Origin: Planctomycetota bacterium
Lineage (GTDB): Bacteria > Planctomycetota > Phycisphaerae > UBA1845
Assembly (NCBI GenBank): GCA_030616775.1
Contig: JAUWWQ010000027.1
Coordinates: 1-54,674 of the forward strand
DNA: 54,674 nt
Direction of reading: 5' to 3'
Part shown: in pieces, positions 2,380 through 5,499 of the stretch
How the letters are laid out: the number at the start of each line of letters is the position of its first letter
Position numbering within the stretch: position 1 is the first letter of the stretch
Notes under the pieces: generated by a model
What the model was told of the DNA's origin: nothing
Database searches by the model: none
The model's input: the letters and a program-made list of their open reading frames with translations, nothing else
Translations under genes and position numbers: made by a program

Positions 2380-2492
2380 CGGGCGTCTTCCCGGCACTGT
2401 TAGTAGAGGATGTTACCTGCGAACGCGTCCCGTTGCCTTCCGCACGACGCAACACTTATGGTCAAACACCTTGCTGATTTGGTTTGGATCTA

Positions 2493-4589
2493 ATGGATAA
2501 GAACGATACGCTTCGCAATCTCCTGATCAGCGTCAGTATCTTCCTCCTCGTGCTGTGGATCTGGCCGAGGCTGCTCCCGCCACCGCCTCAGCAGACATAC
2601 TCATCGACAACCGGTCAGGCCGCAGGCCCGGTCGCCCAACCGGTAGATCCCGGAATTGTGCAGCCTGAGCCGCACGAAGATGCAGGCGAAACAGGCATAC
2701 AGGATGAAGCCAGTGCCGGTTTTGCGTTTCTGGAAGCAGACAATGAGCAGACGCTGGCGATGGGATCGGGGCCTGCGGAGGGGATCGACAAAGAGGTACC
2801 GAGCCCATATCGCATGCGGCTGACACTGTCGAACGTGGGCGCGTCCGTTGAGAGCGCCACGATGACCGATCACGCCGAAGATCTCGGGAGTGACCAGCGC
2901 TATATACTCTTGTCCACGATAGAGCGAGATGACGGGCGGCGTTTTCGCTCCCTGGCGATTGAACAGATCAATGTTGACGGTATTGACCTTCCCCTCCATG
3001 ACAAGAAGTGGCACGCAGAGCCGGTGAAAACGACCGACCAGGACCAGAGTGCCCTCTTCTGGATCGAGATTCAGCAAGACGGTGCCCCGGCGCTGAAACT
3101 CACCCGCACCTTCATGCTCCCCAAGCAAGAGAGGGAATCCGGTCGGCATGATCTACAGTCCGAAATCAGGGTGGAGAATCTCTCAGACCAATCTCATCGT
3201 GTAATCATCACATATCGGGGGGGGCTCGGTATACGACGAGCAGGGCTTCGAATGGATGACCGCTTCATCGACTGGGGTGTTCACGATGGCACCCATGTGG
3301 TGGGAAATCGGGAGGGACAAGGGGTAGTCACCAAGAGCCCCGGGCATCCGGTCGTACTCTTTGTGCCATCGGCGGCCGAACCCAACACTGTGTTCTCCTG
3401 GGCGGCGACGGCCAACACCTATTTCACCTGCACGATTGCACCGCTTGGCCGCGACGGACACGGAAACGCCAAATACCTGGCGGAAGTGTCCGCGCTGGAT
3501 GCCGATGGGGACGCCCTCAGCAACGACGACGCCACCTTGCGTCTGGTCACCAGGGCGGAAGCCCTCGGCCCGGGTAGTGCACTGATCTACCCCGCTGACA
3601 TCTACCTCGGCGAAAAAGACGGTGACGTATTTCGCGAGGTGCCCGAGTACCTGGAACGGAACTACTACTATCAGGTCGCTCAGGCCTACCCGTGGTGCAC
3701 CTTCGCCTGGCTGGTCGAGCTGATGGTCTTGTTGCTCAACGGCCTGTTTTGGATGGTGCGTGACTTCGGCGTGGCCATTATCATCCTCGTGCTCATCGTG
3801 CGTGCCCTACTGCATCCGATCACCAAGAAGGGGCAGGTGAACATGGTGCGGATGCAGCAACGAATGGGTGATTTCGCGCCGAAAGTCGAGGAGCTGAAGA
3901 AGAAATTCGCCAACGACAAGGCCCGCCTGCAACAGGAGACCATGAAGCTCTACCGGGAGCACGGGATCAATCCAACCACCCAGTTCCTGACCTGCCTGCC
4001 CATGGTCATTCAACTGCCCATCTGGGTGGCGCTGTGGATCAGCCTGAGCAACAACATCCTGATGCGGCATGAGCCGTTTCACTTCACCTGGATTCATGAC
4101 TTGACCGCACCGGATGCATTGTATACATTCCCTGCGCCGATCGTCGTGCCTTTCTTCGGATGGGAGCTCCCTGCGTTCAACCTGTTGCCGATCCTATTGG
4201 GCATCTTCATGTACCTGCAGCAGAAGCTTCAGCCCAAACCGAAGCCTAATCCCAATGCCACCGATCAGCAGCGGCAGCAGCAGGAGATGATGCAGAAGAT
4301 GATGCCGCTTATGAGTGTCATGATGCTCGTCCTCTTCTATAAGGCCCCCAGCGGACTGACGCTCTATATTATGAGCAGCTCGCTCTTTGGCGTGATAGAG
4401 CAGCACTGGATTCGCAAGCACATCAAACAGCGGGAGGCAACCGGTACACTGGTCCGGAAGGCTCAAAAGGACGATGTCCGGTTGCGACCGCGCAAAAAGC
4501 TGTCCATCTTCCAGAAGCTCCAGAAGATGGCCGAGGATGCTCAGAAAACCCAGGCCAAGAAGGCGGCGAAGAGCAAGTCCCGTCGCTAA
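2493..4589 (+). CDS. yidC: membrane protein insertase YidC
   Basis: YidC inserts and folds inner-membrane proteins, alone or with SecYEG. This 698-residue protein has the Gram-negative layout: an N-terminal membrane anchor (about residues 8-26), a large periplasmic beta-domain (to about residue 390), then the conserved five-helix core, with the signature YREHGINPTTQFLTCLPM at about 485-502 and a helix pair from about 550 to 640. The C-terminus ends in a strongly basic, Lys/Arg-rich tail suited to ribosome contact. The ATG at 2493 is preferred to the TTG three codons upstream because MDKNDTLRNLL matches the usual start. A repeat-rich terminator-like region follows. Confidence 0.96.
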   Translation: MDKNDTLRNLLISVSIFLLVLWIWPRLLPPPPQQTYSSTTGQAAGPVAQPVDPGIVQPEPHEDAGETGIQDEASAGFAFLEADNEQTLAMGSGPAEGIDKEVPSPYRMRLTLSNVGASVESATMTDHAEDLGSDQRYILLSTIERDDGRRFRSLAIEQINVDGIDLPLHDKKWHAEPVKTTDQDQSALFWIEIQQDGAPALKLTRTFMLPKQERESGRHDLQSEIRVENLSDQSHRVIITYRGGLGIRRAGLRMDDRFIDWGVHDGTHVVGNREGQGVVTKSPGHPVVLFVPSAAEPNTVFSWAATANTYFTCTIAPLGRDGHGNAKYLAEVSALDADGDALSNDDATLRLVTRAEALGPGSALIYPADIYLGEKDGDVFREVPEYLERNYYYQVAQAYPWCTFAWLVELMVLLLNGLFWMVRDFGVAIIILVLIVRALLHPITKKGQVNMVRMQQRMGDFAPKVEELKKKFANDKARLQQETMKLYREHGINPTTQFLTCLPMVIQLPIWVALWISLSNNILMRHEPFHFTWIHDLTAPDALYTFPAPIVVPFFGWELPAFNLLPILLGIFMYLQQKLQPKPKPNPNATDQQRQQQEMMQKMMPLMSVMMLVLFYKAPSGLTLYIMSSSLFGVIEQHWIRKHIKQREATGTLVRKAQKDDVRLRPRKKLSIFQKLQKMAEDAQKTQAKKAAKSKSRR

Positions 4590-4623: not shown

Positions 4624-4810
4624 TCGCTGGACCGAGAATCCCTCGCTGGACCGAGAATCCCTCGCTGGACCGAGAATCCCTTCTCGGTCCCGAGGGACGT
4701 GCCGATCGCTGGACCGAGAATCCCTTCTCGGTCCCAAGGGACGTGCCGATCGCTGGACCGAGAATCCCTTCTCGGTCCCAAGGGACGTGCCGAGAAAGGA
4801 TTCTCGGCAC
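4624..4810. repeat. tandem hairpin repeat cluster downstream of yidC
   Basis: A 19-bp unit (TCGCTGGACCGAGAATCCC) occurs three times head to tail at 4624-4642, 4643-4661 and 4662-4680. From the third copy the array changes to a 44-bp unit repeated three times at 4662-4705, 4706-4749 and 4750-4793, with one base difference in the first. Each 44-bp unit contains a perfect 10-bp inverted repeat with a 4-base loop (arms at 4667-4676 and 4681-4690 in the first). The array is closed by a different perfect 10-bp hairpin, GTGCCGAGAA/TTCTCGGCAC at 4787-4810, also with a 4-base loop. A second small GTCCC/GGGAC pairing overlaps each hairpin. It sits between two convergent genes, so a bidirectional terminator or mRNA-end role is plausible. 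Confidence 0.95.
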
Positions 4811-4845
4811 AGCAGAGTTCGGTTCTGTCAGCCGGTCGCACTCTC

Positions 4846-5499
4846 TCAGAGTACTTCGACGCACGCGAGCAGTGCCGGACAGTTGTCCTCCCAGCAGCGT
4901 TTGGGGGAATGATGTGAGGGAAGTTCCAGCGTAATTGTGGGGATGTTCCGCTCGAGGCCGGCCCATGTGCCGATGCTACCGGGCGTTCCATAGCCAATCG
5001 AGCATGTTACCGGGTAGCCGTTGATGCGGCTCATAGTCGCGGCGACAGCTCTTCCGGGTCCGTCATAGTTGTTGCATTGGCGATGCCCGTCGATCGAATG
5101 GACGGTGACGATCCGGATCGGCGGGTAGCGTTTCACCACCCTGATTACCGTGCGCGTTTCTGGTTCGCTGGCCGGCTCGGTACCGCCGAACATGCGGCTT
5201 CGTCTCGACGTCCGAGCCCAGTTCTTCGTCGGGAAGTTGCGGTTGATATCCACCTGATTGGCGTTGCGCCGCTTTCGTCGTTCGTAGCCGTCAGGGTTTA
5301 CGACCGGCAGGACGACCCACCGCACGTTGGAGGCCGCAGGGGGGTCGGTCGTCAGAAGTTCGATCAGCCGTCGCGCCAGGAATACGCTCTTGGGTTCGTC
5401 GCCGTGGAAGCCGCCGAAGACCAGGATGGTAGGCCGGCCCCGCTTCCCACGGACATAGGCTTCGATTGGCCGCCCTTCAACAGATCTTCCTACTCTCAC
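4846..5499 (-). CDS. M14-family zinc carboxypeptidase, MpaA-like
   Basis: A 217-residue peptidase with the M14 zinc signature: H32-G-D-E35 supplies the first two ligands, followed by NPDG and the NRNFP substrate-binding segment. A later VHSIDGH provides the third-ligand His, and TLELPS near the C-terminus holds the catalytic Glu region. The HGDE...NPDG...NRNFP order and compact length are those of murein-peptide amidase MpaA and related enzymes, which trim meso-diaminopimelate from cell-wall peptides. The start is GTG at 5499; no strong Shine-Dalgarno precedes it and no signal peptide is seen, so a cytoplasmic recycling role is inferred. It converges with yidC. Confidence 0.8.
   Translation of the reverse strand: MRVGRSVEGRPIEAYVRGKRGRPTILVFGGFHGDEPKSVFLARRLIELLTTDPPAASNVRWVVLPVVNPDGYERRKRRNANQVDINRNFPTKNWARTSRRSRMFGGTEPASEPETRTVIRVVKRYPPIRIVTVHSIDGHRQCNNYDGPGRAVAATMSRINGYPVTCSIGYGTPGSIGTWAGLERNIPTITLELPSHHSPKRCWEDNCPALLACVEVL

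Follow-up and report, generated by a model that had tools for sequence, protein, structure and literature searches.

Structure of the array downstream of yidC

The stretch of DNA analysed here (the window; 54,674 nucleotides, contig JAUWWQ010000027.1) is contig 37 of the draft genome of a Planctomycetota bacterium of the class Phycisphaerae (assembly GCA_030616775.1), a genome of 4.45 Mb in 108 contigs that is designated G000 below. Our subject is a nested array of hairpins that occupies 190 bp (4624-4813) between two genes. The upstream neighbour is yidC (2484-4589, + strand), encoding a membrane protein insertase (Pfam 60KD_IMP, 1.1e-44; TIGR03592 over cut-off), and its stop codon lies 34 nt before the array. 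On the other side, 32 nt separate the array from the end of a gene for an M14-family zinc carboxypeptidase-like protein (4846-5499, − strand; Pfam Peptidase_M14, 3e-26). The two genes are convergent, as stated in the original prediction, which was made from the sequence alone.

In order, the array comprises a pair of 19-bp half units, three units of 44 bp and an inverted terminal hairpin. Tandem Repeats Finder recovered a 19-bp repeat of 3.1 copies with 100% identity (4624-4681), which merges into a 44-bp repeat of 3.0 copies with 98% identity (4662-4793), copy 1 differing by a single G/A. Every 44-mer contains the hairpin GGACCGAGAA-TCCC-TTCTCGGTCC, with a stem of 10 bp and a loop of 4 nt; this hairpin and its unpaired foot are called here a type A repetitive extragenic palindrome (REP). 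Unit 1 (4662-4705) comprises such a REP (hairpin 4667-4690), a spacer and TGCCGA, and units 2 (4706-4749; hairpin 4711-4734) and 3 (4750-4793; hairpin 4755-4778) also carry type A REPs, all on the + strand. The array is closed by an inverted type B REP (4787-4813, − strand), composed of the hairpin GTGCCGAGAA-AGGA-TTCTCGGCAC (4787-4810) and the foot AGC (4811-4813), which extends the array 3 bases beyond the end first proposed. The REP of unit 3 and this inverted REP, with their feet outward, form an intact REP doublet forming hairpin (REPIN), also termed a bacterial interspersed mosaic element (BIME; 4752-4813, + strand). At the opposite end, two 19-bp units of the same sequence (4624-4642 and 4643-4661, + strand) contain TC, the foot GCT, the 5′ arm and the loop, without the 3′ arm, and are referred to as half-REPs. 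The nested 19-bp and 44-bp repeats, the perfect 10-bp stems with 4-nt loops and the different 10-bp hairpin at the array end had all been predicted correctly; the first two 19-mers are half-hairpins rather than hairpins.

Our analysis confirmed the array as real. Its 18-base core, with ≤3 mismatches, has 4 matches in the window versus 0.03 on average over 100 shuffles. Comparison of the minimum free energy (MFE) with that of shuffled sequence, one of the checks suggested at the outset, gave z = −7.2 for the array as RNA and −8.4 as DNA, with 0/200 shuffles equally low in each case. Core matches and fold energies so far outside the shuffles exclude chance. The RNA MFE structure of unit 1 includes an extra TCCCTCG/CGAGGGA helix, an alternative pairing that bears out the suggestion of competing folds. 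A scan of the array against Rfam produced nothing above the gathering score; the best match, mir-3127 (E 0.13), reached 24 bits versus a gathering score of 82 and was rejected as chance.

A dispersed family of REP-type hairpins

Another of the suggested checks, a search of the whole genome, revealed that the hairpin core recurs throughout G000. The 24-base perfect palindrome is present 53 times and the 16-base core 130 times (85 + 45 copies), compared with 0 for a reversed-pattern control. Among the alternatives offered in the original prediction, a dispersed hairpin family was therefore the correct one. A looser pattern counted 141 hairpins, 136 of which fall in 93 clusters; the surroundings of these 136 were fetched as 94 blocks (333 kb). 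Degenerate copies are missed by these patterns.

In a scan of the fetched blocks, the 139 hairpins that could be oriented share an unpaired foot, GCT in 135/139 and YGCT in 130/139. The G next to the GCT foot pairs with the base just past the 3′ arm and hence lies outside the foot. The lower stem defines subtypes in which both sides have changed jointly: GACC/GGTC (60 hairpins), TGCC/GGCA (26), GTGC/GCAC (26) and GGCC/GGCC (7). Over the four stem-base pairs, 530/556 cells are Watson-Crick, versus a mean of 365 and a maximum of 394 in 2000 shuffles; these cells are not independent, because many hairpin copies are near-identical.

The commonest unit is a REP A, a spacer and an inverted REP B with feet outward, as in the intact element of the window, which is one of 19 exact-pattern copies in the fetched parts of G000; further inverted neighbours exist. 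According to our own hexamer-based caller of open reading frames (ORFs), 78/93 clusters are intergenic, 6 lie within a predicted ORF and 9 are at edges, while the same caller classes ~79% of the fetched DNA as coding. The family thus consists of palindromes of 20-40 nt in many extragenic copies with a conserved unpaired 5′ foot motif, which makes them REPs in the broad sense, and the pairing of two inverted REPs as a unit makes the doublets REPINs or BIMEs. Convergent genes surround 19/78 of the intergenic clusters and make up 35/206 of the pairs of neighbouring genes in these blocks (REP-bearing pairs included). This enrichment is weak, and the family has no clear preference for convergent gene pairs. 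Some REPINs (G000:C3:1416, C18:3802, C66:30132 and others) carry one or two tails of ~34 nt, TAGTACCGTGTTTCA...GACTAT, which are mutually inverted.

A RAYT gene flanked by family hairpins

G000 has eight Y1_Tnp matches, seven of them above the cut-off. Family hairpins were found on both sides of a single one of these genes, on contig C17 (L023:1402-1947), and none were found at the loci of the other seven. The C17 gene encodes a REP-associated tyrosine transposase (RAYT) of 181 aa, with 110 bits to NCBIfam REP_Tyr_transpos (cut-off 80) and E. coli TnpA_REP (4er8, E 6e-5) as its best solved-structure relative. Close homologues (62-73% identity) are present in ten other genomes of a set of 150 that includes G000. 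In the alignment the motifs NH[LVIM]H (HUH) and Y---NP are found in 10/10 sequences and WQ in 8/10 (WR in L153 and WE in L154), the combination that characterizes class 2 of the RAYT/TnpA_REP proteins. In the C17 RAYT, the tyrosine of Y---NP is residue 138. The NCBIfam equivalog scored above its cut-off in 9/9 RAYTs scanned, a set without L152 and the contig-cut L155.

Hairpin and gene occur together. The core hairpin is present in 11/11 genomes with a close RAYT versus 35/139 others (Fisher p = 9e-7), and within the order, with G000 excluded, in 10/10 versus 35/103 (p = 5e-5). It is absent from all 36 genomes of the same class outside the order. One RAYT locus per genome was used; G098 has two further copies. 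The gene is bracketed by family hairpins in 8/11 loci (G000 and 7/10 in other genera), the arrangement known as a REPtron; in the remaining loci the hairpins are imperfect or partial (L147, L151) or the locus is cut by a contig end (L155). The upstream hairpin begins 77-79 nt from the start codon in 7/8 flanked loci and at 122 in L148. The foot is GCT upstream in 8/8 and downstream in 6/8, the two hairpins are inverted in 7/8, and an inner hairpin, CGCGGGAA-TCCC-TTCCCGCG, occurs on one or both sides in 4/8 (L149, L150, L152 and L154).

Three further Y1_Tnp or RAYT-like genes of G000 stand between hairpins of other kinds. In L020 (G000:C88), at 1180-2200, a second Y1_Tnp gene lies between the repeated hairpins CCGCGGGC-GCCA-GCCCGCGG and CACCGGGC-TCGC-GCCCGGTG, and this locus is probably another REPtron. 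In L024 (G000:C23), CACTGCTC hairpins (1258 and 1996) enclose a third RAYT-like gene, which shares 30% identity with the C17 RAYT. A Y1_Tnp gene between CCCAGCG hairpins in L018 (G000:C24; 1394 and 1986) is perhaps part of an ordinary IS200-like element.

Taken together, these results make it very probable that the array arose by tandem expansion of a REPIN, and that this REPIN belongs to a dispersed non-autonomous family moved by the encoded RAYT, an HUH-Y1 single-strand endonuclease. The hairpin family, its linkage with the RAYT and the presence of one REPIN at the corresponding site of a species of the same genus (see below) are the basis of this reading, and the action of the RAYT on the REPs is supplied by analogy. 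In E. coli and Stenotrophomonas, TnpA_REP acts on its cognate REPs, recognising foot and hairpin on single-stranded DNA. As described in PMC8266576, it cuts single-stranded REPs beside the hairpin, and in one system the foot tetranucleotide directs the choice of cleavage site. By analogy with these cleavage data, the RAYT would act on YGCT-footed hairpins: it would recognise the YGCT foot and the hairpin on single-stranded DNA, nick beside the foot and rejoin the REPIN elsewhere.

Several observations weigh against this reading. The Fisher tests ignore the shared ancestry of the genomes. The REPs of the RAYT itself are of subtype C and those of the window of types A and B, so that cross-recognition is assumed. 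The downstream foot is ACT in L149 and L150, and the flanking hairpins of L148 are direct, not inverted. Many hairpins are present yet no close RAYT was found in G002 (47), G106 (78) and G092 (54), perhaps owing to incomplete genomes or to loss. Just 7/22 distinct stem-base combinations pair fully, the remaining 15 occurring in one to three copies each, and the foot of the family departs from the canonical GT[AG]G. Two further points concern the array itself: the copy number of the array is possibly wrong because the assembly is a draft in 108 contigs, and the single REPIN at the corresponding site could instead reflect loss of copies, two species being compared there.

The orthologous site and the half-REPs

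In G002, a genome of the same genus, the gap between yidC and the M14 gene holds a single element, REP A followed by inverted REP B, between flanks that are 91 and 93% identical to those of G000. It is orthologous to the intact REPIN of the window (4752-4813). With one REPIN at this site, the simplest reading is that the array of G000 expanded locally afterwards, in support of the recent expansion proposed in the original prediction. Arrays of the family in relatives, picked by closely spaced matches, have units of 18, 22, 24, 35, about 47, 49, 65 and 100 bp, which indicates that expansion recurs. In one relative, a minisatellite unrelated to the REPs (57 bp × 4.8; L185, G084:C34, 24-296) adjoins a REP array.

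Retention of the element at the same place in G002, the position of the array between convergent stop codons and the high stability of its folds are also what a bidirectional terminator or a stabiliser of mRNA 3′ ends, maintained by selection between yidC and the M14 gene, would lead one to expect. The array nevertheless contains no stem followed by a T-run, and a strong bidirectional terminator, as originally suggested, is not supported. Between 4400 and 5100 the sole terminator-like match falls within yidC (4530-4504, − strand) and is of the level seen in shuffled sequence. The general intergenic location of the family, with no clear convergent enrichment, and its dispersal and RAYT linkage, which are explained without such a role, also speak against selection at this junction. 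We consider this explanation unlikely; an effect on the yidC or M14 mRNA ends, if any, would be secondary to the origin of the array as an expanded REPIN.

The 19-bp units are not peculiar to the window. In G000, 20 half-REPs made up of foot, 5′ arm and loop precede an intact REP, at 14 places; the one on C12 extends 6 nt into the 3′ arm. The 2 downstream matches in G000 are both whole hairpins with mismatches. The scan of relatives' loci gave 9 upstream and 3 downstream matches, some of them mismatched whole hairpins, and the G002 stretches gave 0 and 1, respectively; the single G002 match (L314) is possibly a genuine 3′ half. On C42, a half-REP present in G000 is missing in G002.

After insertion of the REPIN, repeated copying that starts immediately 5′ of the foot would produce 19-bp half-REPs when it ends at the loop and 44-bp units when it continues through hairpin and spacer; this could be either RAYT-primed or plain polymerase slippage. 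Slippage at hairpins is common, and plain replication slippage, for which the RAYT is not needed, can also explain half-REPs and tandem units. Short microhomologies (for example, ATC) seen by eye at half-REP junctions are in its favour. On the other side stand the polarity of the half-REPs, which keep foot and 5′ arm all 20 times with no clear 3′ half in G000 (one possible in G002), and the position of the breaks immediately 5′ of the foot, a point at which several insertions likewise start. We give slippage alone somewhat less than an even chance as the cause of the tandem expansion, and it is compatible with the array being a REPIN.

Direct repeats at insertion sites

Insertion sites were analysed for direct repeats with both copies ≤15 nt from the element edges and family sequence masked. 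At ≥28 bits, 12/93 clusters of G000 are flanked by a direct repeat versus 7/8556 mismatched pairs, and at 22 bits 14/93 versus 11/8556, with repeat lengths of 12-106 bp and identities of 70-100%. An unmasked version at 40 bits gave 12/93 versus 82/8556. Most clusters (79/93 at 22 bits) have no direct repeat, and the cluster of the window is among them. Two of the listed duplications are doubtful: the copies at C12:30699 share just 70% identity, and the GC-rich C97:11109 may represent a different repeat.

In G106, 0/21 clusters had a direct repeat at the 15-nt limit, and the limit was widened to 45 nt after this failure. At 45 nt and 28 bits, the frequencies were 14/93 in G000 (mismatched pairs, 22/8556), 4/21 in G002 (0/420), 2/26 in G022 (3/650) and 0/21 in G106 (5/420). 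The loci were the first 30 listed for each of G022 (68 matches) and G002 (47), and 20 chosen places of G106 (78).

Eleven G000 clusters have alignments towards both sides in G002: nine in stretches that total 2.0 Mb, and C19 and C42 each by one alignment across the site. Clean insertions, with a repeat present just once in G002, are seen at three of them: C35:58152 (21 bp), C14:35721 (32 bp) and C14:31023 (106 bp). At two sites, that of the window array and C42, the element is common to both genomes. The element of C1, C6, C18 and C19 is missing in G002, with flanks diverged or replaced; C41 is rearranged, and the alignment of C80 is uninformative. The C17 RAYT unit (752 bp) itself lies between 90-bp direct repeats that are 88% identical. 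In G001, of the same genus, the flanks of this unit overlap by 43 bp over one repeat copy with no RAYT between them, the remainder of the 90 bp being too diverged to align; the insertion site had no DNA match in G002. The repeat is accordingly single in the relative at four cleanly compared sites, three REP clusters and the RAYT unit. Direct repeats at the RAYT units of relatives (L146-L154) are merely REP-derived or weak.

Direct repeats beside some copies, and tails of the TAGTACCGTGTTTCA...GACTAT kind on one or both sides of several copies in mutually inverted orientation, would suit a miniature inverted-repeat transposable element (MITE) of a classical insertion sequence with terminal inverted repeats and a DDE transposase, the hairpins being passengers. 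The tails are, however, missing from other copies, including the array of the window and, by eye, the RAYT unit; the direct repeats vary from 12 to 106 bp instead of having a fixed length; and the hairpins flank the RAYT across genera. A MITE origin is very improbable on these grounds, which do not include a search for a DDE element bearing such tails.

Long target duplications are supported in this genus (two species) by these sequence comparisons and are unproven outside it, other genera giving weak signals or none; with 0/21 in G106 and a weak result in G022, we do not generalise the effect. Known members of the IS200/IS605 family, as described in PMC2817692, make no larger target duplications, so long repeats of variable length need an extra step, for example strand-displacement synthesis from the nick before rejoining. 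We put forward, tentatively, that a RAYT and its REPINs in Phycisphaerae, the RAYT unit included, might transpose by a reaction in which about 12-106 bp of target are copied, the same cycle building half-REPs and arrays, a proposal that we hold to be possible rather than probable. After a nick by the enzyme next to the YGCT foot, strand-displacing synthesis would extend the free 3′ end, and the strand set free in this way would be rejoined through the REPIN. Nick, extension and rejoining within a REP could then yield half-REPs and tandem arrays like the one at yidC. With regard to how REPs spread, REPIN insertions that can be compared with empty sites make the insertion reaction readable from sequence. 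If the long duplications are the work of the RAYT, the IS200-like model of REP movement needs change.

Comparison with known systems

The array belongs to the broad REP/REPIN-RAYT kind. Our literature search, confined to one collection of papers, found none joining Phycisphaerae, transposase and palindromes. The present system resembles the REP/BIME system of E. coli with TnpA_REP (RAYT group 2), as described in PMC8266576 and PMC6006769, in its high-copy short intergenic hairpins with an unpaired 5′ foot, its inverted pairs and tandem clusters and its REP-flanked RAYT gene; it differs in foot (GTAG there, YGCT here), in stem (bulged there, perfect here) and in phylum. The REPINs of Pseudomonas and Stenotrophomonas with group 3 RAYTs share short perfect palindromes, inverted doublets and tandem REPIN clusters (PMC3116915, PMC8266576), and their foot is GTAG. 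Since tandem REPIN clusters are described in PMC3116915, arrays as such are not new. We saw no report of target duplication in the main texts of these two papers, in which ‘target site' is confined to the reference lists. Insertion into REPs by another element, IS481, is described in PMC11708052.

IS200/IS605 elements have in common with the present family an enzyme of the HUH-Y1 type and hairpins near the ends. They insert without larger target duplication, unlike the elements here, which have direct repeats at some, not all, sites of G000 and G002 (12-106 bp at some G000 copies). The GTAG and CGTC REP super-families (PMC3733652), with representatives in Planctomycetes, likewise feature tagged palindromes, REPtrons and tandem reiteration; both tags are missing here, the YGCT foot being neither GTAG or GTGG nor CGTC. 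Class 3 TnpA_Y1 of Planctomycetes and Acidobacteria (PMC6006769) agrees in phylum, atypical feet and high copy number, and differs in having a CnGA foot and Y----Q in place of YGCT and the class 2 signature Y---NP. The YGCT foot thus enlarges the set of foot motifs compared here (GTAG, CGTC and CnGA).
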